A DNA stretch of 64,000 nucleotides, taken from the NCBI RefSeq assembly GCF_024345185.1, contig NZ_BROB01000005.1, positions 1-64,000 of the forward strand, written 5' to 3'. The position numbers were made by a program, and so were the translations under genes. The notes under the pieces are model-generated. The model was not told where the DNA came from, searched no databases, and was given only the letters and a program-made list of their open reading frames with translations. Positions within the stretch are counted from its first letter, which is position 1, and every line of letters begins with the position of its first letter. Below, piece after piece: positions 25,069 through 63,553 of this stretch. This stretch comes from Levilactobacillus humaensis (lineage in GTDB: Bacteria; Bacillota; Bacilli; Lactobacillales; Lactobacillaceae).

Positions 25069-25413
25069 ATGGAAAATGAATTTAGTCAGCAGTTAGTGAA
25101 GATCCGCCGCCGACAGAATCTGTCGCAGGAACAGTTGGCGAGTCAGCTGTTTGTCTCACGTCAATCAATTTCAAAGTGGGAGCAAGGGGAAACGTCGCCG
25201 GATATTGGGACGCTGGTGAAGCTGGCCAATTTGTTACAAGTCGACTTGAACGAATTGGTTAGCGGTGATTCAACAGGAGAGCGTGTTCGTGACCCTGAGG
25301 TCCTGCGGCAAAAAACGTCGACCGAGAATTTCTGGGAGTTCTTGTCGAATAACTGGTGGACGGTCATTCCGATCCTGGGGATTGTGTGGTTGATGTTAAG
25401 CAGTTTTAACTGA
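25069..25413 (+). CDS. XRE regulator with C-terminal membrane anchor
   Basis: 114 residues. An N-terminal Cro/CI helix-turn-helix (LSQEQLASQLFVSRQSISKW, then GETSPDIGTLVKLANLL) and a C-terminal hydrophobic segment (TVIPILGIVWLMLSSF) that would fix it to the membrane. ATG 25069 has AAAGGGG at normal spacing; ATG 25060 overlaps it. A TATAAT -10 lies at 25036-25041. Such membrane-bound XRE proteins are common in Firmicutes; the signal and targets are unknown. Confidence 0.85.
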   Translation: MENEFSQQLVKIRRRQNLSQEQLASQLFVSRQSISKWEQGETSPDIGTLVKLANLLQVDLNELVSGDSTGERVRDPEVLRQKTSTENFWEFLSNNWWTVIPILGIVWLMLSSFN

Positions 25414-49241: not shown

Positions 49242-50318
49242 CTATTTCGGGACGCTCAGGCGGTGAATAAAGGTGACGATGGCCGTGGTCGAGGTCTGCT
49301 GGGAGTCGTGTCCCCAGAGACTGATGAGGGTGCCACGGGTCGTCACACTGGGTTCAAGTGTCCGGTTGTGGTTGGCGTTGGTCCGATCGATTTCGTTAAA
49401 CATGTCCGGGGTGTAATCGTCGCGAAGGTAATTCAAGAAGTAAGTATCGTAAGCAGCATTGCCAATGTATTGCAGCTGATAGTAGGTGGCATAGCTGTTG
49501 CAGTTAATAATTTGGCGGTTGCGGTTAACCAGATTGGGAACCGACACGCGTTTGGCACGCCGGTTGACGAGTTCGGCTCGTTCGGCGTGGTTGCCAGACT
49601 GGGACCAGTAGGTAACCACGATGTTGGCATCTAATTTCGGCAGTTGTTTCTTTAGAATGGAATCATTCCACACGACGGTGGTAAAGCCGCGCTTGTTCTG
49701 ATCGCGGTTAAGTTGATTGACGAACTTGGTTAGGTAGCGGTAGTCGCCATCCGTTCCTGGAACCTCATCGGCACCGATAATGAGATCACGATATGGTTGG
49801 TTTTTAAAGCTACCATCCAGTTCGCGATAGATCTTTTTGGCGACGGTGACCGCCTTAGGACTGGTGTAGTCAAGCGTTTCTTTGTCAAGTTTGACGGCAC
49901 GGTAGGTCTTGCCGTGTTTACGTTTGAGTTGTTTGAGAATCGCGCCCGCATGCGAGGGCAGATCGACGTCCGGAACCAGTTGAAGTTGGCGTTGGTTGGC
50001 AAAGGTAACCAGCCGTTTGAGGGCCTTGGGTGACAAGACCGTCTTCGAGGCCCGATTTCCCAAATAGGTTGACTGAAAGCTGAGATGTTCGTTGTCGCTG
50101 AGGTGCAGGACCACGTAGGTGAAATGCTGATCGGCCGCGGCCGAGATGACGCGCTTAAGGGAACTTTCGGAGAGGGGATGGCGGCCGAGATCGATGAGGA
50201 GTCCCTGCTTAGTATCCAGCTGAGAACGTCGCGCCGCCTGAGCGGTAGTTGCGATTGGTGAAATGAGAGCCAAACAGAAACTGATTAGAATAAGCATAAT
50301 GAATGAACGACGCTTCAA
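49242..50318 (-). CDS. Secreted GH20 beta-N-acetylhexosaminidase-like enzyme
   Basis: 358 residues. Signal peptide (SFIMLILISFCLALISPI, then TTAQAA). One GH20 catalytic barrel with the catalytic pair Asp184-Glu185 in IIGADEV, plus VPDVDLPSHAGA and VVTYWSQSG. It would release terminal GlcNAc or GalNAc from glycans outside the cell. No cell-wall binding domain is present. Ribosome site GGAGGAACG before the ATG. It follows a surface-protein gene on the same strand, which may hint at a shared host-glycan niche. Confidence 0.85.
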   Translation of the reverse strand: MKRRSFIMLILISFCLALISPIATTAQAARRSQLDTKQGLLIDLGRHPLSESSLKRVISAAADQHFTYVVLHLSDNEHLSFQSTYLGNRASKTVLSPKALKRLVTFANQRQLQLVPDVDLPSHAGAILKQLKRKHGKTYRAVKLDKETLDYTSPKAVTVAKKIYRELDGSFKNQPYRDLIIGADEVPGTDGDYRYLTKFVNQLNRDQNKRGFTTVVWNDSILKKQLPKLDANIVVTYWSQSGNHAERAELVNRRAKRVSVPNLVNRNRQIINCNSYATYYQLQYIGNAAYDTYFLNYLRDDYTPDMFNEIDRTNANHNRTLEPSVTTRGTLISLWGHDSQQTSTTAIVTFIHRLSVPK

Positions 50319-50539: not shown

Positions 50540-50586
50540 ACTGACATGATATGTCAGTCTGCTTTGCTAGAATGAGGTTATCAACT
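50540..50586 (+). promoter_or_regulatory. Module operator/promoter 1
   Basis: A perfect palindrome ACTGACATGATATGTCAGT (50540-50558), a -10 TAGAAT (50569-50574) and TTATCAACT (50578-50586) at the start of the transcript. No good -35 is present; the palindrome sits there. The same set recurs at 51953 and 56389. Confidence 0.8.
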
Positions 50587-50617
50587 GATTTCACTAGCAC
50601 TCCTGACTAGTGAAATC
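50587..50617 (+). other. Leader hairpin of the first paralogue gene
   Basis: GATTTCACTAG and CTAGTGAAATC form an 11-bp perfect stem in the 5' leader. No T-run follows. The other bases of the 317-bp upstream gap show nothing else. Confidence 0.5.
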
Positions 50618-50641
50618 TAAAAAACTGAAGGGGCGATGTCG

Positions 50642-51874
50642 ATGCTGAAAAAGAATATTGATTTGAACCAATACCTAGCCGACCAACAGATTTACGCGAA
50701 CCTCTTAATCTATGATTACAGTCAAGCTGATGCGGTAGTGCCAGAGAATCGGGTGACCCTGTTGTCTCCGGAGCGGCGACGGCTAACCCAACGCGGCGGG
50801 CGTTACCAACTTTACAATAATTCTGGTGACTTCTACGTCAATGGTCTGACGTTAGCCGATCTCAATCGTCGATTGCCAGAGATGATGGCTAGTGACCAGC
50901 CACAAGTCTTATCGACTGAAGAACCGCACTTAGATATTGTGGCTGATTTGATTCGTCAGGTCGCGGCGATGGGGTTGGTGGTGACCGGCAGTCGCTATGT
51001 TTGTGAACGAACTTGGACAGCGACTGACGATCGTCGATTGATGGCAACCTTGCTGTCACATCGGGGCTGTACAGTCCAAGCTGGCGAAACGCCAGGTTCA
51101 ACCATCATGGTGGACGAGGATCAGCAGCCTGTCATGCGAGAAGAACATGATGGACACGACGCAGAACTGGTCGACGATGTTCGATTCACTGTGCAGGACC
51201 GGGCGGGTCATCCGCTGATTCGTTTGATTCCCTTGGACTTATTGGGCACCGTTCTTTACGGCTTACGTTGCGGTTTTTCAGCACACCAATTGCAGGAGTG
51301 GCTTCTGTGGCCGAGACTGGATCAATCTTTGATTGGTTCGGCGCGATTAGCCTTAGTTGAGAGTCGCCAGACGCCAGCAAAGCCAATAACCTCACTCGCT
51401 GATTTACGGAAATTGAATACCGTCTCCGTGCCCACTGACCGGCCAATTACCGCGCGTTGGTTTCAATTTACGAATGCCGCCGACACGCGTGACTTGGGTG
51501 GCGCGATGGCTCCCGAAGAGGCGAGTGACGTGTTGGAAGCCGCGTTCCATGGTGACCCGCGTCCCAGTGATCGCGAATTCTCCGATTGGTTGGTCCGCCT
51601 TGCTGCGTGCTTTAACTTGCAGATTCAGCGGCGGCAACGGCGGCGATTAGCCGTTTGTGATGTCGACCAATTTAAGGTTGAAAATGGTGAAATCGAAGAT
51701 CTGGAGGCGACTAGCCGGGCCAACACGGGTGGTTTTCCGGAAACGGTCTATGAAATCTTCGATCGTGAAGCTGGACTTTCGGTGTGCTACGACCTGTCAT
51801 TTCGGGAACTGGTGCCAACCTTGTTGGCGTTGGTCGCGCAACATAAAATAATCCTTTCAAGGAAGGATAGTTAG
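50642..51874 (+). CDS. Unknown family, paralogue 1 of the WYL-linked module
   Basis: 410 residues, soluble, no signal peptide or membrane segment. I do not recognise the family. It is homologous along its length to the next gene (SPERRRLT, GSRYVC, EWLLWPRL, LQIQRRQRR, PETVYEI) and distantly to the minus-strand gene at 55148. A pattern of beta-rich segments (VRFTVQDRAGHPLIRLIP) and a final YDL...L helix recurs in all three. ATG 50642 has AAGGGG eight bases upstream; ATG 50636 is too close. The promoter carries the shared TGACAT palindrome. Confidence 0.75.
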   Translation: MLKKNIDLNQYLADQQIYANLLIYDYSQADAVVPENRVTLLSPERRRLTQRGGRYQLYNNSGDFYVNGLTLADLNRRLPEMMASDQPQVLSTEEPHLDIVADLIRQVAAMGLVVTGSRYVCERTWTATDDRRLMATLLSHRGCTVQAGETPGSTIMVDEDQQPVMREEHDGHDAELVDDVRFTVQDRAGHPLIRLIPLDLLGTVLYGLRCGFSAHQLQEWLLWPRLDQSLIGSARLALVESRQTPAKPITSLADLRKLNTVSVPTDRPITARWFQFTNAADTRDLGGAMAPEEASDVLEAAFHGDPRPSDREFSDWLVRLAACFNLQIQRRQRRRLAVCDVDQFKVENGEIEDLEATSRANTGGFPETVYEIFDREAGLSVCYDLSFRELVPTLLALVAQHKIILSRKDS

Positions 51875-51952
51875 ACTGAACCGATTAAGTCTGGGGGGCC
51901 GATTGTGGCTTCCCAGACTTTAAGATTAAATTGTTGCAACCAAAAGTGTCAA

Positions 51953-51999
51953 ACTGACATGATATGTCCATTTGACTGGGTATAATTGAGTGTATCAGG
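51953..51999 (+). promoter_or_regulatory. Module operator/promoter 2
   Basis: ACTGACATGATATGTCCAT (51953-51971), -10 TATAAT (51981-51986) and TATCAGGT near the transcript start. The distance from CTGACA to the -10 is 21 bp, as in the other two copies. Confidence 0.8.
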
Positions 52000-52040
52000 T
52001 GATTTCATGTGAGTATTAGTGAGCTGATGACTAAGGAGCG

Positions 52041-53243
52041 ATGATTCTATTGAAAAAAGCAATGGATTATAACCAATATCTAGTTGAACACCAAATGGCC
52101 GCCACAATGTTAATTTACCGTTATAGTGAAGCCGATATCGTATCTCCAGGAAGCGACGTGACCGTCCTGTCGCCAGAACGTCGGCGATTGACCTTGAACG
52201 ATGCGCGGTATCAGCTCTATAACGATACGGGTGTTTATGCCAATGGGGTGACGCTGGACGATCTTAAGTCGACATTGGCGACCTTAAGAGCCAGTGATCA
52301 CGACCAAGGCTTGTCAGCGAACGTACAGGAATCCAGTACCATCATTAGCTTGATTCAGGACCTCGCGAAAATGGGGTTGACGGTGATGGGTAGCCGCTAT
52401 GTCTGTGATCGCGCATGGGATGTTGATGATGATCGGCGGCTGGTGGCGGCGTTATTGCATCCGCAGTTGCGTAACGATCAACCGCAAAATGAAGCTCAAG
52501 AGGCTTCAATGTTGAATTACGATTGGGAACGGACTGTGCGACGGGATCGTCAGCCCAATGGGGTCAATAAGGTCGATGAAGTCCGCTTCACCATTCAGGA
52601 TCAAACCGGGAAAACATTGCTACGACTCGTCCCACGGGAACGCTTAGGAACAGTCCTTTATGCGCTACGGTGTGGGGCTAGCCCGCAACAGATCCGCGAG
52701 TGGCTTCTGTGGCCGCGGCTAGAACAACTTTCTCTGGATTATGCGCAGCTATCCCTGCTGACCTGCTGGCAAAGCGAGTCGCGAAGGATTGTGACGCTGA
52801 AAGACTTGCTCACCCTGGACGACTTGGCGGTGTCCGACCAAGATTTAGGCGATTCGTGTTGGTATCAGTTCACGGATCAAAGTGAGAAACGCCGCTTTGG
52901 TGGGGCGATTCCCTTTACCGAAGCTGGCGACGCACTGTCTAAAATTTTTCACGGCCGTCAGTACGCCGGTGACCGCGAGTTTTCCGATGGGTTGGCGCAA
53001 CTTGCTCAGCATGTCAATCTGCAAATTCAGCGGCGGCAGCGGCGATTGTTCGACATTGCTGATATTGACAGATTCCAAGAGTCTGAGGGTGAAATCGTTG
53101 ATATGTCGGCTACGGGCCGAGATGGTCATGAGGGCCTGCCGGAAACGGTCTACGAAATTATCGATCTGGGCTCAGGTCGAACCCTACGCTATGATCTCTC
53201 AATTAATGACTTAGTGATGGCGGTACTCGCGTTTGCCAGCTAG
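52041..53243 (+). CDS. Unknown family, paralogue 2 of the WYL-linked module
   Basis: About 400 residues, soluble. Close to paralogue 1 in most of its length but with a different segment at about residues 140-170 (QPQNEAQEASMLNYDWE). Shared blocks: SPERRRLT, MGSRYVCDRAW, LGTVLYALRCG, EWLLWPRLEQ, LQIQRRQRR and LPETVYEIIDLGSG. Start is ATG 52041, only two bases after AAGGAG, or TTG 52050, which matches the paralogue start better. Function unknown; no catalytic motif is visible. Confidence 0.75.
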   Translation: MILLKKAMDYNQYLVEHQMAATMLIYRYSEADIVSPGSDVTVLSPERRRLTLNDARYQLYNDTGVYANGVTLDDLKSTLATLRASDHDQGLSANVQESSTIISLIQDLAKMGLTVMGSRYVCDRAWDVDDDRRLVAALLHPQLRNDQPQNEAQEASMLNYDWERTVRRDRQPNGVNKVDEVRFTIQDQTGKTLLRLVPRERLGTVLYALRCGASPQQIREWLLWPRLEQLSLDYAQLSLLTCWQSESRRIVTLKDLLTLDDLAVSDQDLGDSCWYQFTDQSEKRRFGGAIPFTEAGDALSKIFHGRQYAGDREFSDGLAQLAQHVNLQIQRRQRRLFDIADIDRFQESEGEIVDMSATGRDGHEGLPETVYEIIDLGSGRTLRYDLSINDLVMAVLAFAS

Positions 53244-53286
53244 TCTAGCTTCTCTAACGAAGAAACGGTAAACGTAAGAAAGTAAG

Positions 53287-53339
53287 GGTTATCAAAACAT
53301 GGATTTAACTCAATCTGAGTGATTGCGATGATGATAACC
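53287..53339 (+). promoter_or_regulatory. GGTTATCA inverted repeat before the WYL gene
   Basis: GGTTATCA (53287-53294) and TGATAACC (53332-53339) flank 37 bp upstream of the WYL gene. TTATCA also occurs at the transcript start of all three paralogues, so this may be a regulator site. No TGACAT palindrome is present here. Confidence 0.4.
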
Positions 53340-53370
53340 AGCTTGAAGTTATCGAAATGGAGGTAGTCAA

Positions 53371-54450
53371 ATGGCAAGCAATGCAAATAAAAAAGGCAAT
53401 GAACAGAAACGCGTCGCTGAGATGTTAATCACCCTGTGGCAGGGTGGTCGGATCGTGGTCAAGGACCTGGAGGAAAAGTATGGGGTCGATGAGCGAACAG
53501 TTCGGCGCGACATCAAGGCGATTAAAGCCGCTGTGTTGGAACAGCGTGATTGGAGTTGGAACCATGATCTGGTTCAACGAGGGACGAGTAAGGTCTATGC
53601 CTACTACCTGACGACTCAAGATGAGTTGACCTATGCTGAAGTCTTGGCCTTATTGAAAATGGTGATTGGCGTACGAGCACTGAGCAAGCCCGAAATGTTA
53701 ACGCTTCGCGAACATCTTTTGGGTTTGTTGTCGCCCAGCCATCGTGAGAATGCCCGTCGGTTAACAACCGTGACCACGGGGACGTATCGGCCCGTGGGCT
53801 ATAATGCCAAGGTTTGGCCGGCCGAAGAGACGCAACCACATATCGGGGCCAGCACGATGGAAAAATTGCCGCTGTTGGATGATATTGCCACCTATATCCA
53901 GGCTGACAAGTGGATTAGATTCAAGTATCAAAACAGCACGGGGGCCGTTAGCACCATCGTGGGAAAGCCAACCAGTGTTACTTTTTCGGCGCATTACTTT
54001 TACGTGTGGATCTACACGCAACAACAAGGTAGCGAGCAAGTCTATCGGTTGGACCGTATGCAACCAGACAGCCTACGCGCGGCGCACCGGGCGGAACAGC
54101 CCATGAATACCAATGAGGGTGAACGCGTGAATCAGACGTATCTCTTGGGTAATGAATTGACCTCGGAGCCGTATGAAATCCAGTACTGGGGCTGGCCACA
54201 GACCGCCCTGGATAGTTTGCCAGGTGTGAAACAGGTCCGCCGAGCCACGGCGGATGAGGAACGCCATCATCCAACCGGAACCGAGATTCTAAAGACCAAT
54301 CCAACGAGTGTCATTATTTCTGGAACTGGTCAGATGCAAGGCTTGGTGCTCTGGATTATGGGTCAGGGGGCATTGGTGCGTGTGCTGAAAAGTCCAAAAT
54401 TACGGGCAGCCGTTTTGACGGAAATTGATCGGATACGGGCACTGTATTAG
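53371..54450 (+). CDS. WYL-domain transcriptional regulator
   Basis: 359 residues. N-terminal DeoR-type winged helix (GGRIVVKDLEEKYGVDERTV, then RRDIKAIKAA), a middle helical region, a WYL-like domain (KWIRFKYQNSTG...YFYVWIYTQQ...YRLDRMQ) and a WCX-like C-terminal extension. WYL regulators control many defence systems, including BREX through BrxR (established knowledge). GGAGG precedes the ATG. Its position between the paralogues and its divergent organisation suggest that it acts on their shared operators. Confidence 0.85.
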   Translation: MASNANKKGNEQKRVAEMLITLWQGGRIVVKDLEEKYGVDERTVRRDIKAIKAAVLEQRDWSWNHDLVQRGTSKVYAYYLTTQDELTYAEVLALLKMVIGVRALSKPEMLTLREHLLGLLSPSHRENARRLTTVTTGTYRPVGYNAKVWPAEETQPHIGASTMEKLPLLDDIATYIQADKWIRFKYQNSTGAVSTIVGKPTSVTFSAHYFYVWIYTQQQGSEQVYRLDRMQPDSLRAAHRAEQPMNTNEGERVNQTYLLGNELTSEPYEIQYWGWPQTALDSLPGVKQVRRATADEERHHPTGTEILKTNPTSVIISGTGQMQGLVLWIMGQGALVRVLKSPKLRAAVLTEIDRIRALY

Positions 54451-54488
54451 TCACAAGTCGTGTTAAAAAATCAAAGCGTTCCAATAAA

Positions 54489-54529
54489 AATAAGAGTCGA
54501 AACCAGTTTATGGTTTCGACTCTTATTTG
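54489..54529. terminator. Bidirectional terminator
   Basis: ATAAGAGTCGAAACCA pairs perfectly with TGGTTTCGACTCTTAT between the WYL gene and the convergent UDG-like gene. Confidence 0.9.
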
Positions 54530-54545
54530 TCAGACCAGTAAGTAT

Positions 54546-55148
54546 TTAGTCGACGGCTTCTTCAGTGATGTCGAGGACTTGTTGACGAACTGTAGCGGCT
54601 TGCCAACGCGTGTTGACTGGAGAGTAGTGGTACATCGTCTTAACTGGGCGGCTAGCAAATTTAGTCAGGGCAGTGTTGACGGTACTTCCTAAGGCAATCA
54701 GCGTGGCGTCCTTTGAGATACCCAGGGCATCAAGGTGCTTTTCGAAGTCACGGACATCGGCTTCAACTGGCTTGGCTTCTTGACTGTTACTGTTGATGGT
54801 CTTGGAGACATCACTCATGAAGGTTCCCCAAAGCTTTGTACCATAAATGGCAGCAGCGAGGCGGTAATCACAACTTCTGGCAGGGCCATGGAAGTTGTTG
54901 AAGAGGCCTTGTTCGCTAGCCTTAGCAGCGGCGTTGCCGGGATTTTGACCGACCAGGACGTATTCAACTTTGCTGAGGCGGTCAGTGAGATCGCTAGGAA
55001 GTTGGTCTTTAGGGGATGTCCCGTGGGCACCATAGGCGGCCTTGAAGAGTTGTTCACGTTCAGCGTCGGTGGCGTTAGCGGGTAAATCAGCGGGAACATT
55101 CCAGAGCGCCCAGCTGTCAACGGTTGAAAAATCAGAAGTTTTAATCAT
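54546..55148 (-). CDS. Uracil-DNA-glycosylase-fold-like protein
   Basis: 200 residues. VEYVLVGQNPGNAAAK resembles motif 1 of the uracil-DNA glycosylase superfamily, and LIALGSTVNTAL with MYHYSPVN resembles the distal strands, but the canonical catalytic Asp and HPS are not clear. DNA repair activity is therefore uncertain. Its ATG overlaps the stop codon of the upstream gene (TAATG), so translation is coupled to paralogue 3, and it should be seen as part of the module. Confidence 0.6.
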   Translation of the reverse strand: MIKTSDFSTVDSWALWNVPADLPANATDAEREQLFKAAYGAHGTSPKDQLPSDLTDRLSKVEYVLVGQNPGNAAAKASEQGLFNNFHGPARSCDYRLAAAIYGTKLWGTFMSDVSKTINSNSQEAKPVEADVRDFEKHLDALGISKDATLIALGSTVNTALTKFASRPVKTMYHYSPVNTRWQAATVRQQVLDITEEAVD

Positions 55149-56344
55149 TATTTATCACCTTTCTTTAGGTCAATGTGACGTAACAGTTTTTCAATCAGGT
55201 TACGAAGCAAGATGTCGTAGGCCACGGTCTGACCGGTGGTCTGGTCAATCAAGTCGAAACTTAATTCAGGAATATGGGGACCGTCTTCTCGCCAGAGGGC
55301 GATATCAACATCGGTGAGACGGCCGTCTACGATCGTGAAGTCTTCGGCCGCCCCTCTGTCGACGAGTTGACGCGTCATACGGTTAATGCCGAGATTTTGG
55401 CCGCTAGCCAAGTTAATGAGGTGTTCAGCCAGCTGTCTTGCGTCGTCGGTTTGCGTCGGATCGACGGGGGTCTGGCTAGTTAATTCAGCAATGACGCTGA
55501 GACAGTCGGTAAGACCAAGATCAGGGCATAGGGCGTAATAGGGTTCGGCAGAAGGACTGAAGGACTGACGGATACGGCCGTCTCCAGGAATTTGCGATTT
55601 CGCCATGCGGGCACAGTCGGCACGACTGGTGATGGGGTAGTCAGCGGAGATGCGGTAGGCAGTGACTCTGATGTCAAGGTCACTGTCTGCGGGGACTAAC
55701 TTGCGACTCGGCCAAATGAGGAGTTGCTTGATGGTTTGGGGGTCGGCTTGGAGTAAGAGACAGCCGATGACCGCGCCAAGGAGGAGGGGATGAATGCTTT
55801 CAATAATCGGCTCACCTGATTGATCGTAAATCGTATAGCGACTCTGATTTGGTAGGTATTCGTTGTCGTTATTCAGGGCTGGAATATTAGCGGTGTCGAT
55901 CGGACGCGTTGGCAAGTCGAGCGTGGCCAGATAGTCAGTAGGATTAGCGACAAATTCGTCGAGATCAGAGATAAAACGCGATTCGAGTTCTTGGATATGG
56001 TGACCAGTCACGGTGAAACCTAAATCGTTCAGATTGGCGATGAGTGTTTCAAGATTGGTGACCGCCGTCGGGCCAAATGGCAAATCGGGTAAGTCATCGG
56101 TCGGTGTCGAGAGGACGCGCTCAAGTTCACGCAATTTTAGATAGGACGTGTAGGTGGTGGTGTTTTCGCCACCCACTTGATAACGCTTGACGCGGTGAGG
56201 CAACTCATCAGATGTGATCGAAAAAAGCGAGGTTGCATTTGAAGCAGTGATGCGTTCGGAATCGCTCTGTGCGTAAACTTTGCACAAAACGTTTAGGTCA
56301 ACATAGGAAAGATTTCTGGTGATTTTGGTCTGAGATATGGTCAT
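55148..56344 (-). CDS. Unknown family, paralogue 3 of the WYL-linked module
   Basis: 398 residues, soluble, distant but full-length homologue of the two plus-strand paralogues. Matching blocks: RYQVGGENTT, NDLGFTVTG, SRYTIYDQSGEPII, TIKQLLIWPS, LGINRMTRQLVD and IPELSFDLIDQTTGQTVAYD. AAGGAGG precedes the ATG. First gene of an operon with the UDG-like gene. Its promoter has the same TGACAT operator and TTATCAACT start as the other two. Function unknown. Confidence 0.72.
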   Translation of the reverse strand: MTISQTKITRNLSYVDLNVLCKVYAQSDSERITASNATSLFSITSDELPHRVKRYQVGGENTTTYTSYLKLRELERVLSTPTDDLPDLPFGPTAVTNLETLIANLNDLGFTVTGHHIQELESRFISDLDEFVANPTDYLATLDLPTRPIDTANIPALNNDNEYLPNQSRYTIYDQSGEPIIESIHPLLLGAVIGCLLLQADPQTIKQLLIWPSRKLVPADSDLDIRVTAYRISADYPITSRADCARMAKSQIPGDGRIRQSFSPSAEPYYALCPDLGLTDCLSVIAELTSQTPVDPTQTDDARQLAEHLINLASGQNLGINRMTRQLVDRGAAEDFTIVDGRLTDVDIALWREDGPHIPELSFDLIDQTTGQTVAYDILLRNLIEKLLRHIDLKKGDK

Positions 56345-56388
56345 TGAAACACCTCCTTGTTAGATTAACGCGGAAACAATATGACTTA

Positions 56389-56435
56389 AGTTGATAAAAT
56401 AAGTATAGTGGATAGGTATGTCATAATGTGTCAGT
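56389..56435 (-). promoter_or_regulatory. Module operator/promoter 3
   Basis: On the minus strand ACTGACACATTATGACAT is followed 21 bp after CTGACA by -10 TATACT, then TTATCAACT. It lies between paralogue 3 and the divergent DUF262 gene, so it could affect both. Confidence 0.72.
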
Positions 56436-56573
56436 CTGATAGTGGTTGCAAAAATTAATTGCACGAAATTGCTATTTATTGAGTTGCCTATTGGGGGAAC
56501 TAGCAGGAAAATAGAAATTGAAAACAAATTTTAAAGTCGCTAATGGATGGGTATCAGTGGGAGTAGAGGCATA

Positions 56574-58349
56574 ATGAAAAAGATCGAGAAGAAAAAGTAC
56601 GATGTTCAAAACAGTGCCATCAGTACTATCTTGGGGTGGATCGAGAACGATGAAATCGGCCTACCAGAGCTACAACGGCCGTTTGTCTGGAATACGGTTA
56701 AAGTGCGTGATCTGATTGATTCGCTGTATCACGGGTATCCAATTGGGTACATTATTACATGGGATAATCCTAAGGTTCGCCTGAAAGATGGGAGTATCGG
56801 CCGAGGGAAAAAGATTATCATCGATGGTCAGCAACGAATTACTGCCTTACGGGCAGCCCTAATGGGGGACTCAGTTGTGACCAAAAAGTTTGAAAAGAAG
56901 CGGATTAAAATTGCGTTCAAGCCGGAAACTGGAGAGTTCCAGACGCTGACCAGTCCGATTGAAAAGGATAAACGGTGGATTTCTGACATTTCAGTACTGT
57001 TTGGTGAAGTAAATCTCTTCGAATTTGTCTCACAATTCGCAAAAGACAATGACTATGATGCAATGAAAATTTCGCAGCCAATTCAACGTTTAAGGGACCT
57101 AGCCAATAATGATGTTGGTAATATTATGTTGTCATCTGATTTGGATATCAGCGCCGTTACGGAAATCTTCAATCGTATTAATTCTAAAGGAACTGAGCTC
57201 AGTTCCGCTGACTTTATTATGTCAAAGCTAGCTGCTGATACGGAACATGGTGGTAATGACCTACGTAAAACCGTTGAGTATTTTGCCACGTTGTTAGAGG
57301 ATCCCACGATTCTACAGAACCTGATGGTGAACGACACAGAATTCAGTACAACAGATTACTATGCCAAAATTAAGTGGGCGGCTAAGGAACGAACCAATCT
57401 CTATAATCCAAGATTTGGAGACATTTTCCATGCTATCTTAGGATTTGAGTTTGGGCGAGGTCGACATGCAGATCTGATTAGCTTAATCTCTGGTCGTGAC
57501 TTCAACAAGAAGACATACACGGAGGAAGCTATGCAGGCGGCATATGCTAAGTTGTCAGAAGGTGTTCTGGCCGTCGTTAATCAGTCCAATTTTGAACGTT
57601 ACTTAATGATTTTGAAGAGTCTGGGCATGTTAACACGCGATACCCTAGTGCTAAATGGACTAGGGGTCCTGAATTTCGGGTACTCATTGTATCTCTTACT
57701 GAAACGACAGGATCAATCATCAATGACCAACTCGCAAATTGAGATGATTGTTAAAAAATGGATTATTATGTCGGCTTTGACCCATCGTTATGGGGGATCA
57801 AGTGAATCGCAAAGCTGGCAAGATATTACGCGATTCATTAAAGAAGATCCACTAACGGTATTGAAAGATGTTTTACGACAAAATCTTTCCGAGGACTTCT
57901 GGACAGTAACGTTGCCGCAACAACTCATGACCTCCTCAACCCAATCGAACGCTTGGCGGGTCTTTGAAATGACTCAGGTTAAGAATGGGGATCTAGCTTG
58001 GTTGGAGAAAGACCACACTGTGGAAAGTGTTTTGAATCAGCAAGGCAACGTCCATCATATCTTTCCACGGGCTTATCTCAAGCGTGAAGGCTTGACCCAG
58101 AAACAGTATAATCAGGTGGCAAATTATACGCAGATTACCCAACCACGGAACCTACAGATCAGTGACCAGATTCCCCGTGATTATTTAGCAGATTCCCAAA
58201 TTACTGAGTTTGCGACTTCGGATAATTTTAGAGAAAATGCGATTCCAGAAGAAGTTTGCCAATTTGATGCGTCGAATTATGATAAGTTTTTACAAATGAG
58301 ACGGCAGCTAATGGCACAAAAGATTCGTCACTATTTTGAAAGTTTATAA
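56574..58349 (+). CDS. DUF262/HNH protein (GmrSD or BrxU-like)
   Basis: 591 residues. The N-terminal DUF262 domain has LQRPFVW (residues 33-39) and IIDGQQRITALRA (DGQQR at 84-88), the ParB/Srx-like nucleotide-binding motif. The C-terminal region has VHHIFPRAYL (His494, His495) and PRNLQI, an HNH/DUF1524-type nuclease. Fused GmrSD proteins of this size are type IV enzymes against modified phage DNA; BrxU is the BREX-associated example. ATG 56574 has GGGAG nine bases upstream. It sits next to the BREX operon, which supports a defence role. Confidence 0.85.
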   Translation: MKKIEKKKYDVQNSAISTILGWIENDEIGLPELQRPFVWNTVKVRDLIDSLYHGYPIGYIITWDNPKVRLKDGSIGRGKKIIIDGQQRITALRAALMGDSVVTKKFEKKRIKIAFKPETGEFQTLTSPIEKDKRWISDISVLFGEVNLFEFVSQFAKDNDYDAMKISQPIQRLRDLANNDVGNIMLSSDLDISAVTEIFNRINSKGTELSSADFIMSKLAADTEHGGNDLRKTVEYFATLLEDPTILQNLMVNDTEFSTTDYYAKIKWAAKERTNLYNPRFGDIFHAILGFEFGRGRHADLISLISGRDFNKKTYTEEAMQAAYAKLSEGVLAVVNQSNFERYLMILKSLGMLTRDTLVLNGLGVLNFGYSLYLLLKRQDQSSMTNSQIEMIVKKWIIMSALTHRYGGSSESQSWQDITRFIKEDPLTVLKDVLRQNLSEDFWTVTLPQQLMTSSTQSNAWRVFEMTQVKNGDLAWLEKDHTVESVLNQQGNVHHIFPRAYLKREGLTQKQYNQVANYTQITQPRNLQISDQIPRDYLADSQITEFATSDNFRENAIPEEVCQFDASNYDKFLQMRRQLMAQKIRHYFESL

Positions 58350-58356
58350 TCAGCGT

Positions 58357-58396
58357 AGAGCATATCGGCTATTGAGCCAGTATGCTCTATTTTATT
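58357..58396 (+). terminator. Terminator of the DUF262 gene
   Basis: AGAGCATA pairs with TATGCTCT, followed by ATTTTATT. Confidence 0.65.
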
Positions 58397-58731
58397 GGAC
58401 ATGTCTGTAAATGCTGTCATAAGTGAAGCAATAGGGAATTGTAGCGATTATCAGAATTAATGCGAAAAATTAGTGGAAAATTTCGTTTGTATGAGTAGAG
58501 GGATCTTGGAAAAAGAGATTTCACAAGAATCCTTTTACCCGATTCGATCGGAAAAGCAGTATATTTCGTTGAATCTATCGCGCCCGAGTCTTTAATCTTA
58601 TATAATTAGTGAAGGTTTCACGTTAATTGCGGATTGTTCGGATTGGGTTTCAGATAGATGAGTTAGAGTCAGACAAGAGGGCCGTTAATCGGATGGCTTT
58701 CTTTAAATGATTATGATGGGAGGACTAGTTG
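58397..58731 (+). promoter_or_regulatory. Upstream region of the BREX operon
   Basis: 335 bp without a gene. TATAAT at 58601-58606 is the likely -10; no clear -35 is at 17 bp, so an activator may be needed. GGGAGGA (58718-58724) is the brxA ribosome site. Confidence 0.4.
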
Positions 58732-59325
58732 ATGAAACAATATAGCGCGGCTATGGTGGCACATTCTTTTTGGTTTAATGAATTTTCGCAATATCTGAAT
58801 CTACGCGATCAAGGGAATACGGATGCGGATATTCGGTATTTAGCTTTAGAAGAAAACTACTTTCAGCAGCAAACAACTTCACGCTCGTTAAGAATGGTTC
58901 AGACACTGAAGCGGCGAGTAACTGTTCTTGATGAAGATTACTTTGATCTGTTTCCATCACTAGATCTGACTAATCAGAAGCTGATAAATTTGTCGGCTAT
59001 CCTGCAACTGGATTCATTATTTGATGATTTTTTGTACGAGGTCTACCGAAATGAATTAATTTTGGGGGATGCGAAGCTCTATGGTTATGAGATCGAGGCA
59101 TTCTTTAACCAGAAGCAGGTTGAAAGTCCCAAGGTGGCTTCCTGGACTGAGCAGACTATCAAGCGATTAGCCGGGACATTTAAGACGTTTTTACGTGAGG
59201 CAGGATTACTTGAGGAACAAGATGATTATGATCAAGTGAAGCGACCACTATTGGATACGCGGTTAGAGATTTTATTACATACAAAAGGGCAGACCCGCCA
59301 GTTAGCGGCATTTTTGGGGAGATAG
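58732..59325 (+). CDS. brxA: BREX protein BrxA (DUF1819)
   Basis: 197 residues, matching the usual size of BrxA. All-helical protein with YSAAMVAHSFWFNEFSQYLN at the N-terminus and FKTFLREAGLL...RLEILLHTKGQTR later, as in DUF1819 proteins. BrxA is a small DNA-binding, NusB-like protein of type 1 BREX. ATG 58732 follows GGGAGGA by seven bases. First gene of the operon; brxB starts one base after its stop codon. Confidence 0.85.
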   Translation: MKQYSAAMVAHSFWFNEFSQYLNLRDQGNTDADIRYLALEENYFQQQTTSRSLRMVQTLKRRVTVLDEDYFDLFPSLDLTNQKLINLSAILQLDSLFDDFLYEVYRNELILGDAKLYGYEIEAFFNQKQVESPKVASWTEQTIKRLAGTFKTFLREAGLLEEQDDYDQVKRPLLDTRLEILLHTKGQTRQLAAFLGR

Positions 59326-59326
59326 C

Positions 59327-59905
59327 ATGACAAAAACAGCAGAAAAGCTCAAACATTTACGAGAAAAGGTTGCAGATCCAGCCTTTCAGCAGAGTCGCGG
59401 TTTGTCGAATGAAGTGTCGTATTATATTTTAGCTTTTGACCCACAGGATCAGCCGTTGGTCACTGAAGAGGTTAGCAACATGTGCCAACAATTGAACCGT
59501 GAAACGGTCGGTATGGATATTGTTGAATTTAATCTTTACCAGATCATGTGGGAATTATTGGATAGTATGGGAATTAAAGAAGATGTTCTAGAGATGGAAG
59601 CCAGTGACGGTATCGACTACCTGACGGAGCAACTGAACAATGCCTTGGAAATGACAAGCACCGAGAACCTGCTGGTTCAGTACATGCAAGAGCATTTACC
59701 TGAAGAACCAGTCATCGTCTTTGTCACGGGAATTGGGGATATTTTTCCGCTAATTCGGGCTCATAAAGTTTTGAATACCATGCATCAAGTTGTAACCGGT
59801 ATTCCGGTTGTCTTCTTTTATCCGGGAACCTATGACAGTCTAAGTCTCAGTATGTTTGGCGAATCCAAAGAGGATAACTACTACCGAGCATTTCAAATCA
59901 ATTAG
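59327..59905 (+). CDS. brxB: BREX protein BrxB (DUF1788)
   Basis: 192 residues, typical for BrxB. Conserved DUF1788-type parts: EVSYYILAFDPQDQPLV, then VIVFVTGIGDIFPLIRAHKVLN and IPVVFFYPGTYDS near the C-terminus. Exact biochemical role unknown; it is needed for BREX defence in studied systems. It follows brxA without a gap and precedes brxC by 12 bp, so all three are co-translated in one operon. Confidence 0.88.
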   Translation: MTKTAEKLKHLREKVADPAFQQSRGLSNEVSYYILAFDPQDQPLVTEEVSNMCQQLNRETVGMDIVEFNLYQIMWELLDSMGIKEDVLEMEASDGIDYLTEQLNNALEMTSTENLLVQYMQEHLPEEPVIVFVTGIGDIFPLIRAHKVLNTMHQVVTGIPVVFFYPGTYDSLSLSMFGESKEDNYYRAFQIN

Positions 59906-59917
59906 GGGAGAACCGCT

Positions 59918-62900
59918 ATGAAGATTAAAGACATTTTTGAAAAATCGATTGATCGGAATATCAAGGGCGTTATTACTATTGGTGATGAACAAGATGCCAA
60001 TGTAAAACAGGAGCTTGAAGAATATGTGGTAACCAAAGAACTGGACGGCCATTTTAAGGATTTCTTCTCGGCATACGCTGAAGGTATCCAGCATGATACG
60101 ACGAACATGGGGGTCTGGATTTCTGGATTCTTTGGGTCTGGGAAGTCTCACTTCTTAAAAATTTTGGCTTACCTTTTGGAAAATCGAGAGGTAGCTGGGA
60201 AGTCGGCTCTAGACTATTTTATTGATGACGCCAAGGTCCACGATCAAGAAACGTTGGCAAACATGAAGTTAGCTGCGTCCATTCCCAATGAAGTCATGCT
60301 ATTTAACATTGATTCCAAGGCCAAAAATGGGAATAAATCCCAAAAAGACGCTATCTTAAACGTCTTTCTACAGGTCTTCAACGAGCAGTTAGGCTTGTTC
60401 GGAGCTGACTTTTGGATTGCTGACTTGGAACGTGACCTGATTGCTCAGGGAAAGTACACAGAATTCCAAGAAAAATTCAAGGAATTAGATCGGCAAAATC
60501 GTGACTGGCTGGATGCACGGAACGCTTATGCCTTTTTGAAAGGGACTATCCGAGACGCATTAGTTGCGATTGGATTCATGTCGGAAGCAGATGCCAATGG
60601 GTTCGTTGATCAACTCAAGAAGGAATACCCCATTAGTGTGGAGAGCTTTGCCAAATTGGTCAACCAGCATATCGAGAGCCAAGGTGAAAATTACCACATG
60701 GCGTTCTTGGTGGATGAAGTTGGGCAATATATCGGGTCTAGTCAACAGCGGATGTTGAACCTCCAAAGTATTGTTGAGGATTTGGGAACCTATACACATG
60801 GTAAAGCCTGGGTAATTGTGACCAGTCAACAAGCCATCGACAAGGTGACTAAGAATATCAATGGACAAGACTTTTCTAAGATTCAAGGGCGGTTCAATAC
60901 TCGGATTGCCATGTCTTCTGCCAACGTGGATGAAGTTATTCAGAAGCGGTTACTGGCGAAAACGGCATCTAGTGAGAAGCTGTTGGAGGCTACCTTTGAT
61001 GAGAATCAACATGTCATCAATAATCTGATTAGCTTTGACGGTAAGGAAGAACGGAAACGGTATGACGATGCTAAAATGTTTGCCGATCTTTATCCGTTTG
61101 TGCCCTATCAAGTGGTTCTCTTACAAGATACATTGACGGCCATTCGCGAGAACGGTTCTGATGGCAAGCATTTAGCCAATGGGGAACGTTCAATGTTGGC
61201 GGTCTTCCAGGAATCTGCGCGACGGTTAGAGAATGAAGATACGCGGGCATTGGTACCATTTAGCATCTTCTTCCAGGGGCTCAGCCACTTCCTGGATCAC
61301 ACGCACATGATTGTGATTCAGCGGGCACAGAACAATGAATTGATTAATCCTAGTGGTGAGGACAATCCCTTTGCCGTTCAGGTTCTAGAAACATTATTCA
61401 TGATCAAATATGTTCAGGACTTCGATGGGACTTTGAATAACTTAGTGACGCTTATGATCGATTCAATCGATACTGACCGGATTGAGTTGGAGGCTAAGGT
61501 TAAGCAAGCCTTACAGGTCCTGCAAGAGCAGAACATCGTCGAGAAGACCAGCAAAGGGTATGAGTTCTTAACCGATGCTGAACAGGACATTAGCAAGCAA
61601 ATTCAGCGACAGGGAGTGGACTCTGGAGAGATTTCTCAAGCAATTGGGGATTATCTCTTCAGCGCAGCTGCCATTTCACGGCGGTACACGTACCCTAAGT
61701 TGAATCAACAGTATACCTTTGTCTTTAATCAATGGATTGATAATCGACCAGTGGGTAAAACCAATCAAGACATCAATTTGAAGATCGTTACGGCAGCGAA
61801 TGATGATAACCGGGATGATAGTGAGTTGCGGCGGCAGTCTAACTCACCGGAACAGCCTCAAATCATTATTGATTTACCAGGGGAATCGCAATACATCGAT
61901 GATCAGCAACAGATCTTACGGATACAGAAGTTTATCCTGAATCCGCAGGAACAATCCCAAGATGCTCGTTCGCAGCGGATTGTGAACGTTAAGAAGACGG
62001 AATTGGGTGCGTTGAAGGAACGCGTAGCCAAGGAATTATTAGACGTTCTCCAACAGGCAAATATTTACGTTCAAGGCGATCGACTCGATGCTGGTAAGAA
62101 AGATTTCTTTACCAGTCTAGGGCAGGCGGAAGAACAATTAATCGATGAAATCTATCGGAACTTAAGTTATATCGATGTCGTTAAACAAGAGAATGACGTC
62201 GTGGCGTTGTTCAAAGACAGCAGTGAATTAGTTAAGACGGCTGAAAATGAGCGGGCCCTTCAGGCGGTGTTAGAACGTGTTAGTCGTGACTATTCTGGAC
62301 ACAGTAAGATTTCGTTTAAGTCAGTATTGGAGCGTTTCAGCAAGATTCCGTATGGTTATCGTGAAATTGATACGAGATGGCTCGTCGCCAAACTTTTCGC
62401 TGATGCTAAGCTAAAAGTTTACGTTAACGGCGAAGCTTTGAGTCTACAGGCAAGAGTGCCGGCCAATGAGATGGCGAAGTACTTCTTGAAACGACAATAT
62501 TTGGATGCTGTTCAAATGGAACCGCGGCATGCCGTGAGTGAGAGCAAAAAGAAAGACCTGAGAGATGTTGCCCTAGAGCTGTTTAAGAAGCAAACCTTTA
62601 GCGACAATGAAGATGACACGCTGATGCGTGAGCTGCAAGACAGCTTGAATAATGCGCGCAAGGCTTTAGACATTTATCTGCAAAAACCGAGTTACTATCC
62701 TGGACAGGATGTGTTGGAGACCGGGCGAGACCTAATGAATCTTTTATTGGCACAAACCGACACGGACCGATTCTATGATTTAGTGAGCCAAAAACATGAT
62801 GATTTACTAGATTGGCATGATGATATGGATGAGGGTGGCATCAACGAATTCTATCAGAGTAAGACGCAACAAGAGATCTGGGAATCGGGGCACACGCAAC

Positions 62901-63553
62901 AAGTCGTCTATGATCGCTCCCAAAAGTTTGTCACTGGAACAGCGGTTAAGGACTTAATCGTTAAAATTGATGAGTTGATGAAGAAACGGCCACAAGGGAA
63001 TATTAAGCCGTTGAAAGACTTGGTTGTGGAATTCCGTGAGGCATTCAGTGCTGAGTTTGATGCTGGCCTGAGTCGAGCACAACAAGACATTCAAACTGAA
63101 CAGGTTGCGACAGAAAAATATTGTGCAGATGAACACCTCACAGAGGAGTTCGGTGACCAGATCCGTCGCGAGTTTGCAAGTTTGCTGAATGATGCGCAGA
63201 ACGCGACGACCTTGAATGGGTTGTTTATTATTCCACAACAGGCGGGTTCTGTCCGGATGCGTTTAGTTCATGGCATGGACCGATTGCTGAAAGAACGCAA
63301 TCGCAATAAAAAGGTGATTCATGTAATACCACCAGTCATTGGAAAAGAAAATGATGATGTGGAGGATGATGGTGGTTCCGATCCAGTTGAACCAGTCATC
63401 ACGCAACGAAAGACAGTCAGCGCTAGAGCGTTAGGAATCAATCAGTCGTGGGACTTGAATAACTCGACGGACATTGATGTTCAGATTGAGAGCCTGAGAA
63501 CTGCTCTTAAGCAGCAGCTAGAAGAAAACGGCAAAATTAATTTTGAACTGTAA
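59918..63553 (+). CDS. brxC: BREX ATPase BrxC
   Basis: 1211 residues, standard for BrxC. Walker A GFFGSGKSHFLK at residues 70-81 and a Walker B-like FLVDEVGQYIG (Asp266, Glu267). N-terminal IKDIFEKSIDRNIKGVI is typical of the family (DUF6079-like ATPase). BrxC forms large ATP-driven assemblies with PglX and other BREX parts. GGGGAG precedes the ATG. No frameshift or missing motif is seen, so the system looks intact up to this point. Confidence 0.93.
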   Translation: MKIKDIFEKSIDRNIKGVITIGDEQDANVKQELEEYVVTKELDGHFKDFFSAYAEGIQHDTTNMGVWISGFFGSGKSHFLKILAYLLENREVAGKSALDYFIDDAKVHDQETLANMKLAASIPNEVMLFNIDSKAKNGNKSQKDAILNVFLQVFNEQLGLFGADFWIADLERDLIAQGKYTEFQEKFKELDRQNRDWLDARNAYAFLKGTIRDALVAIGFMSEADANGFVDQLKKEYPISVESFAKLVNQHIESQGENYHMAFLVDEVGQYIGSSQQRMLNLQSIVEDLGTYTHGKAWVIVTSQQAIDKVTKNINGQDFSKIQGRFNTRIAMSSANVDEVIQKRLLAKTASSEKLLEATFDENQHVINNLISFDGKEERKRYDDAKMFADLYPFVPYQVVLLQDTLTAIRENGSDGKHLANGERSMLAVFQESARRLENEDTRALVPFSIFFQGLSHFLDHTHMIVIQRAQNNELINPSGEDNPFAVQVLETLFMIKYVQDFDGTLNNLVTLMIDSIDTDRIELEAKVKQALQVLQEQNIVEKTSKGYEFLTDAEQDISKQIQRQGVDSGEISQAIGDYLFSAAAISRRYTYPKLNQQYTFVFNQWIDNRPVGKTNQDINLKIVTAANDDNRDDSELRRQSNSPEQPQIIIDLPGESQYIDDQQQILRIQKFILNPQEQSQDARSQRIVNVKKTELGALKERVAKELLDVLQQANIYVQGDRLDAGKKDFFTSLGQAEEQLIDEIYRNLSYIDVVKQENDVVALFKDSSELVKTAENERALQAVLERVSRDYSGHSKISFKSVLERFSKIPYGYREIDTRWLVAKLFADAKLKVYVNGEALSLQARVPANEMAKYFLKRQYLDAVQMEPRHAVSESKKKDLRDVALELFKKQTFSDNEDDTLMRELQDSLNNARKALDIYLQKPSYYPGQDVLETGRDLMNLLLAQTDTDRFYDLVSQKHDDLLDWHDDMDEGGINEFYQSKTQQEIWESGHTQQVVYDRSQKFVTGTAVKDLIVKIDELMKKRPQGNIKPLKDLVVEFREAFSAEFDAGLSRAQQDIQTEQVATEKYCADEHLTEEFGDQIRREFASLLNDAQNATTLNGLFIIPQQAGSVRMRLVHGMDRLLKERNRNKKVIHVIPPVIGKENDDVEDDGGSDPVEPVITQRKTVSARALGINQSWDLNNSTDIDVQIESLRTALKQQLEENGKINFEL

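Follow-up and report, generated by a model that had tools for sequence, protein, structure and literature searches.

A gene block of Levilactobacillus humaensis, lying at positions 50540 to 56435 of the window (the whole stretch of 64,000 nucleotides analysed here, positions 1 to 64,000 of contig NZ_BROB01000005.1), is best explained, at a probability of roughly 0.6, as the core of a regulon driven by a WYL-type activator. In this regulon a PafBC- or DriD-like regulator would switch on three paralogous proteins of about 400 residues, a UDG-like enzyme and, in relatives, addAB together with apparently secreted proteins, probably upon nucleic-acid stress. The operator defines a regulon with a fixed promoter architecture, namely a palindrome, an 11-nt spacer (N11), an intact -10 box and no good -35 box. 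This architecture stands before each of the three paralogues and before the UDG-like gene or the operon that holds it; it also stands before unlinked genes and, in several genomes, before the WYL gene. The motif and the WYL family co-occur across genomes. The elements of the block are as follows.

50636..51874, + strand: paralogue 1 (P0001, 412 aa), of an unknown family of ~400-residue proteins
52041..53243, + strand: paralogue 2 (P0002, 400 aa), of the same ~400-residue family
53371..54450, + strand: WYL regulator (P0004, 359 residues), with a DeoR-type helix-turn-helix (HTH), a WYL and a weak WCX domain
54546..55148, - strand: UDG-like protein (P0005, 200 aa), its start sharing one base with the stop codon of paralogue 3
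55148..56344, - strand: paralogue 3 (P0003, 398 aa), first gene of a putative operon with the UDG-like gene
50542..50573, + strand: promoter of paralogue 1, TGACA-N5-TGTCA at 50542-50556, N11, -10 box TAGAAT at 50568-50573; 0 mismatches
51955..51986, + strand: promoter of paralogue 2, TGACA-N5-TGTCC-N11-TATAAT; 1 mismatch
56402..56433, - strand: promoter of the putative paralogue 3/UDG-like operon, TGACA-N5-TGACA-N11-TATACT; 0 mismatches to the TGWCR form and 1 mismatch to the TGTCR form of the pattern given below

All five genes, the paralogues as well as those of the WYL and UDG-like proteins, are intact open reading frames (ORFs) in the window. The start of paralogue 1 is taken as 50636, the 50642 of the first-pass annotation being an alternative start in the same frame. 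The operator pattern, YGACA-N5-TGTCR-N11-TAnnnT (with the TGWCR form as a looser variant), was read off the sequences upstream of paralogue, WYL and UDG-like genes in four genera; its likeness to the PafBC motif was noticed on sight and later checked in print. Each paralogue had been credited with its own promoter, in which CTGACA stands 21 nt from the -10 hexamer, and this is exact in all three. That the three promoters carry the same palindrome is true of two of them, the match being perfect at 50540-50558 and having two mismatches at 51953-51971, but is weak at 56402-56433, where the right half reads TGACA for TGTCA and which the strict palindrome pattern misses even with up to three mismatches. 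At the transcript start, for which TTATCA had been proposed, TATCA follows all three -10 boxes of the window but shows no regulon-wide conservation. The strict palindrome has two matches in the window against 0.26 expected; because 3 of 100 shuffles equalled this count, the window alone constitutes modest evidence and the relatives decide.

The nearest named relatives belong to Levilactobacillus, with protein identities to paralogue 1 of 92% in L. paucivorans and 88% in L. lindianensis; a scan of genome contigs with one pattern gave five loci. Across loci, searched from -200 to +60 of gene starts in sets that include near-identical orthologues, the operator with at most one mismatch was found before 18 of 23 tested paralogue genes and before 1 of 222 other genes of the same loci (Fisher 8e-22, homologues not being independent). 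We regard as highly improbable the explanation that the paralogues are co-inherited neighbours lacking common control, with palindromes arising by chance or as inherited duplicates: paralogues 1 and 2 do form a tandem pair, 46% identical, so that their promoters could be copies, but the operator also stands before the diverged paralogue 3 and before UDG-like, WYL and unrelated genes, and the count just given disfavours it. Five paralogue genes fall short of this criterion. Two are in genome G229, where transcription may come through from a WYL gene farther upstream that does bear a site; two have degenerate sites at the right spacing (loci L030 and L031); and the fifth is that of L036, which probably has a wrongly assigned start and to whose upstream region the profile gives a weak match (E=0.17). 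Outside these 23, the paralogue genes of G166 and G250 have sites with one mismatch and with no mismatch to the TGWCR form, respectively, and G295 has a single motif match genome-wide (E=0.53). Sites with at most one mismatch lie directly upstream of 2/15 WYL genes and 6/9 UDG-like genes, most of the others following a paralogue gene. In 13 loci of the WYL family, namely those of all 12 paralogue-free genomes with a WYL score of at least 330 bits plus that of G053 (where paralogue and WYL gene are on different contigs), a site stands directly before the WYL gene in 7 of 13, vs 4 of 133 other genes there.

The geometry of these sites is narrow. When any spacing between 2 and 30 was allowed, a single gap accounted for 28 of the 45 matches, or for 26 of the 41 that are distinct, the next commonest occurring 4 times. 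Taking the first T of the -10 box as -12, the palindrome extends from -38 to -24 and is centred near -31, its right half being centred at -26. Of 49 dereplicated sites, none has a hexamer at 17-bp spacing that agrees with TTGACA at more than 2 of 6 positions (range 0-2); 19 of the 49 have an extended -10 TG, and 36 fit TGTCR-N11-TAnnnT exactly, the sites having been chosen with a related pattern. A repressor could be envisaged instead, with the palindrome over the -35 region blocking polymerase until a ligand frees it, as BrxR- and CapW-type WYL regulators do. The palindromic operator on the core promoter, the autoregulatory sites and those 19 extended -10 elements, able to support transcription without an activator, would suit such a mode of action. 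Repression, however, needs no constant spacing to the -10 box, which is kept here across unrelated genes of several genera, and most sites have no good -35 box to occlude; we consider it unlikely.

Activation at promoters of this kind has precedents. The LexA/RecA-independent promoter of mycobacteria, which is under PafBC control, is given as tTGTCRgtg-8 nt-TannnT, i.e. TGTCR-N11-TAnnnT (PMC5656591, motif description); PafB is placed on the -26 motif (PMC11804915), and the SiwR motif of Mycobacterium smegmatis lies likewise at -26 (PMC10693628). The same features, TGTCR at -26, N11 to an intact -10 box and a poor -35, are present here, so that likeness to PafBC extends over HTH-WYL architecture, promoter motif, site position and the best sequence match of the WYL profile in the PDB. 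SiwR, as described in the cited account, is a single WYL activator, forms a homodimer in vitro, needs the -26 region and has adjacent targets induced by genotoxic stress, and it differs from the present system in that its targets are DinB/YfiT-like proteins and a GGA triplet is conserved at -26. DriD of Caulobacter, in the account of a preprint (PMC12340889), has pseudo-palindromic sites which keep a constant distance to the -10 box and straddle a poor -35; its targets are didA, bapE, recJ and dnaG, unlike those found here, and the likeness is one of layout. By analogy with PafBC, SiwR and DriD, the WYL protein would bind the palindrome as a homodimer and hold sigma-A RNA polymerase on promoters lacking a good -35 box. 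Its activation would require that the WYL domain take up a nucleic acid as ligand, most likely single-stranded DNA from damaged or invading DNA. The output would consist of the ~400-residue proteins and a predicted DNA glycosylase of the UDG superfamily, with addAB in some relatives; the role of the ~400-residue proteins is the least certain step. Lactobacillaceae thus appear to possess a promoter nearly identical to the mycobacterial damage promoter, but extended to a palindrome and served by a WYL regulator that a single gene encodes. If this is true, activation by WYL proteins where a good -35 box is missing becomes testable in another phylum, and a defined regulon is obtained for a UDG-like glycosylase and for a protein family that is so far uncharacterised.

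The regulator itself had been recognised as a WYL protein lying among the paralogues, and its HTH_DeoR (1.9e-6) and WYL (1.7e-6) domains both exceed the Pfam cut-off, the C-terminal WCX match being below it (E=0.035, 14.9 bits vs 23.9). It is one chain with one HTH and one WYL domain. When the family profile was compared with PDB sequences, the best match was PafBC (6sj9, E 7.9e-4, no individual stretch reaching significance). The remaining matches are weak, starting at E=0.006, and include WYL proteins, Mga-type regulators and DriD chains. No operator lies directly upstream of the WYL gene of the window, which may be transcribed from the paralogue 2 promoter. Family members were found in 98 of 397 Lactobacillaceae genomes (E<=1e-40), their scores splitting into a higher and a lower range; viral contigs, searched with the WYL protein only, yielded no relative of it.

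The ~400-residue family, by a profile of 15 members, occurs in 18 of the 397 Lactobacillaceae genomes and 5 of 40 genera, one of the 18 (G250) having a remnant. A phylum-wide search of 398 genomes recovered the family in its own genome only, and searches with paralogue 2 came up empty both among plasmids (at E<=1e-5) and among phages (at E<=0.01). The coordinated WYL-linked system proposed at first is supported by the neighbourhood survey, since a WYL family gene stands within ~1.3 kb of a paralogue in 13 of the 16 genomes read (G166 and G250 left out; the exceptions are G053, G093 and G295) and the operator is common to both. A WYL score of at least 330 bits, a cut chosen by eye, was found in 14 of 18 genomes with a paralogue vs 12 of 379 without. 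Among 80 genomes outside the model, picked from a list and not randomised, the motif (E<=0.02) was detected in 21 of 40 with a WYL gene (E<=1e-40) and in 1 of 40 without (p=4e-7, kinship and base composition being uncontrolled); the single exception, G005, has a weak WYL match (3e-10). Among the titles listed by a literature search on WYL regulators in Lactobacillus, none is on this regulon, which does not prove it unpublished.

The regulon was further delineated with a sequence profile (R1, built from 22 sites) run on 33 genomes, of which 29 had matches at E<=1; of the 15 congeners that have no paralogue, 11 are among these 29. In 60 of the matches listed, which were read, the largest class of targets was that of apparently secreted proteins, beside which WYL regulators, UDG-like proteins and addB were found; some regions had no clear target, and in 4 matches the interval extracted for reading missed the site. 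The secreted class was named by eye from signal-peptide-like starts, and 34 of its proteins, from 24 regions, form one cluster. Upstream of addB, the operator occurs with one mismatch in two genera (G053 and G166; L171 and L199), the G166 copy of the gene being broken up into two frames. By eye, RGTWY-type, matrixin-like and CAP-like proteins were seen among the apparently secreted products of genes preceded by the operator in Levilactobacillus without a paralogue (L141-L200), the few of them scanned having no family match.

These targets raise another possibility, that of a surface or secretome regulon of WYL regulators which recruited the paralogues and the UDG gene and whose signal is not DNA damage. 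In congeners without a paralogue the motif stands mostly before genes of apparently secreted proteins, some of which have a WYL gene of the lower score range next to them (in G395 and, judging from coordinates, in G265 and G373), and the window's genome has one such gene on contig C7; yet UDG-like genes are under the motif in 12 of 12 cases and addB in two genera. We hold this to be a real but minority possibility, and prefer a stress-responsive WYL activator.

Several observations nevertheless weigh against that preferred explanation. The largest class of motif-bearing genes elsewhere, the apparently secreted proteins, has no evident role in DNA metabolism. PafBC, as its published descriptions have it, is a heterodimer, fused in some species, with a non-palindromic site, whereas here one gene encodes one chain and the site is a palindrome; it is because of the single HTH-WYL chain and the palindromic site that the regulator is not filed as PafBC and only as working like one. 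According to the same sources, PafBC activates most damage-induced genes, unlike the mostly unknown or apparently secreted targets found here. At 16-bp spacing, 7 of the 49 sites match TTGACA at 3-4 of 6 positions. Since the window's genome codes for a second WYL protein of the same family, on C17, the protein acting on the operators of the window is not singled out. In the 80-genome comparison, 19 of the 40 genomes with a WYL gene had no motif match, and in the 33-genome set, which includes the training genomes, the association is weak (25/26 vs 4/7, p=0.02). G093 has six motif matches, a paralogue and a UDG-like gene, with no family WYL (E<=1e-3) and no PF13280 (E<=0.01); G218 and G250 also have motif matches without a family WYL, and G279 a family WYL without motif matches. 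Finally, the perfect operator-plus-minus-10 match at C17:31507 has no gene behind it.

The products of the paralogous genes had been described as homologous along their full length and as matching no known family, and both descriptions stand. Near full-length identities are 46% over 401 positions between paralogues 1 and 2, and 24% over 398 and 25% over 394 for the pairs involving paralogue 3. Profile searches with hidden Markov models gave no match to any of the three at E<=1 in Pfam, NCBIfam and PADLOC, and two in PHROGs (E 0.32 and 0.062), both judged noise; the family is uncharacterised within the libraries searched. An AlphaFold2 model of paralogue 1 built from 15 sequences reached a mean predicted local confidence (pLDDT) of 84.9 and a predicted template-modelling score (pTM) of 0.84, and Foldseek retrieved nothing at E<=0.001 from the PDB (whole model and C-terminal half) or BFVD (whole model). 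A likeness of the model to sliding clamps was not used, its VIA-align Z of 2.0-2.3 falling within the rest of the rows (best overall Z 3.5). Four internal alpha-beta repeats, suggested by predicted secondary structure, are not claimed either, segment profile comparison giving a probability of only 0.08 to 4.4%.

Thirteen of 15 family members are acidic (isoelectric points 4.5-5.6); because the other two are basic, a DNA-mimic role is not general. Arginines at positions 48, 49, 56, 332 and 335 (R48, R49, R56, R332, R335) are each conserved in 11 to 14 of the 15. Since paralogues adjoin the regulator gene more often than the UDG-like gene, we would guess that they are intracellular partners sensing or limiting the response. 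The paralogues of G093 and G166 have an extra N-terminal stretch of ~75 residues, to which Pfam has no significant match; in these extended proteins (L041:9551-10981 and L220:6694-8118) the stretch looks HTH-like by eye. A bolder and quite improbable proposal is that a WYL-type stress switch has in this family a signalling component of a new kind, of undescribed fold with possibly four alpha-beta units, which senses a signal or transmits it to the operator-binding regulator, and which replaces or bypasses the WYL protein in one genus; the last point is raised by the ~75-residue extension in that genus' two known members and by G093 keeping operators without a detectable WYL gene.

The UDG-like gene had been reported as coupled to the third paralogue, and the start/stop overlap of one base agrees with this, for which reason the two would constitute one operon. 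Its product matches PF03167 below the gathering cut-off (E=5.9e-4), as a member of a family in which five of nine proteins match the profile (best 5.8e-6), GxNPG is present in 8/9 and HYS-x-x-N in 9/9, motifs that recall the UDG superfamily; the family profile had no match to PDB sequences at E<=1. The family occurs in 12 of the 33 genomes searched, 11 of which carry a paralogue, and all 12 genes are under the motif, 9 through their own promoter and 3 via a paralogue operon. Other weakly UDG-like proteins were noted at C20:14868 of the window's genome (G000; E 0.0036, under the operator) and at L030:11140-12177 (E 0.025, directly behind a WYL gene).

Within the window's genome (2.37 Mb, 67 contigs), sites with at most one mismatch to the TGWCR form number 21, vs 10 for a reversed control; 9 of the 16 one-mismatch sites are inside ORFs and likely due to chance. 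Two of the five perfect sites are in the window, two precede an ORF (C7, C27) and one is that of C17:31507. Three additional members appear credible.

C7:7302: apparently secreted protein of 185 residues, sharing 31-32% identity with genes that in L038 and L039 lie close to the WYL gene or follow it
C20:14868: protein of 260 residues with a weak UDG match (E=0.0036)
C27:3805: ORF of 89 residues

On its right side the block adjoins, as had been noted, a DUF262 gene and BREX (DUF262/GmrSD_N, BrxA and BrxB at 56547-59905), and these neighbours fall outside the regulon.

56547..58349, + strand: DUF262/GmrSD-N gene (PF03235, 1.6e-30), no operator
58729..63553, + strand: brxA, brxB and a brxC-like gene (BrxA 1.4e-46, BrxB 9.8e-37), no operator before brxA

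One BrxC match was obtained with PADLOC in a protein set that includes 59918-63550. A specific tie to BREX or defence, as suggested by the first-pass annotation, found no support: BREX was rejected as a regulon member, the best match to the motif, the only one tried, having four mismatches before brxA and the DUF262 gene, and hand-picked control regions also hold defence genes. PADLOC detected several such genes both among neighbours (127 of 189 ORFs, near-duplicates removed; best 25 of 126 families) and in controls (124 of 186 ORFs from 20 regions picked by hand, hand-trimmed and not dereplicated; best 25 of 75), and for this reason no verdict on enrichment is given.

The glycosylase Brig1 is a relative of UDG. 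A phage-defence module, in which the WYL protein senses infection and induces a modified-base glycosylase and unknown effectors beside BREX/DUF262, could invoke it, DNA glycosylases being potentially antiviral, as stated for Brig1 (PMC11078745), along with BREX in G000 and G250, brxA in G053, type II restriction-modification in G159 and G234, AbiE in G370, PDC-S25 in G275 and PDC-M46 in G093. WYL regulators of the BrxR/CapW type also occur near defence genes, but here neither the DUF262 gene nor BREX has an operator. Moreover, control regions too hold CRISPR, restriction-modification and DarG genes, several loci have no recognised defence gene, and PADLOC had no match for the paralogues or the UDG-like protein; we judge such a module somewhat unlikely. 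The original suggestion, "perhaps defence or DNA-damage sensing", is partly supported: the promoter layout is consistent with DNA damage or a nucleic acid as the signal and the regulatory part is strengthened, while the defence part is unproven.

In G135, no BREX genes accompany paralogue 3 and the UDG gene over the 17 kb read to one side; on the other, the contig ends. G250 retains a remnant of paralogue 3 (104 residues, L219) with an intact operator, adjoining DUF262, brxA, brxB and brxC-like genes that share 90-98% identity with their counterparts in the window, from which the island occupies the same site in more than one species. In Companilactobacillus, an AbiEi/AbiEii-type pair lies beside paralogue and WYL genes in L040 (PADLOC match) and L029 (24-31% similarity). 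Elsewhere in the window, a perfect CGACA-N5-TGTCG palindrome at 25111-25125 has no -10 box at the right distance on either strand, and a GH20-like protein is encoded at 49242-50318 (PF00728, 1.7e-18), with relatives in 6 of 17 loci compared.

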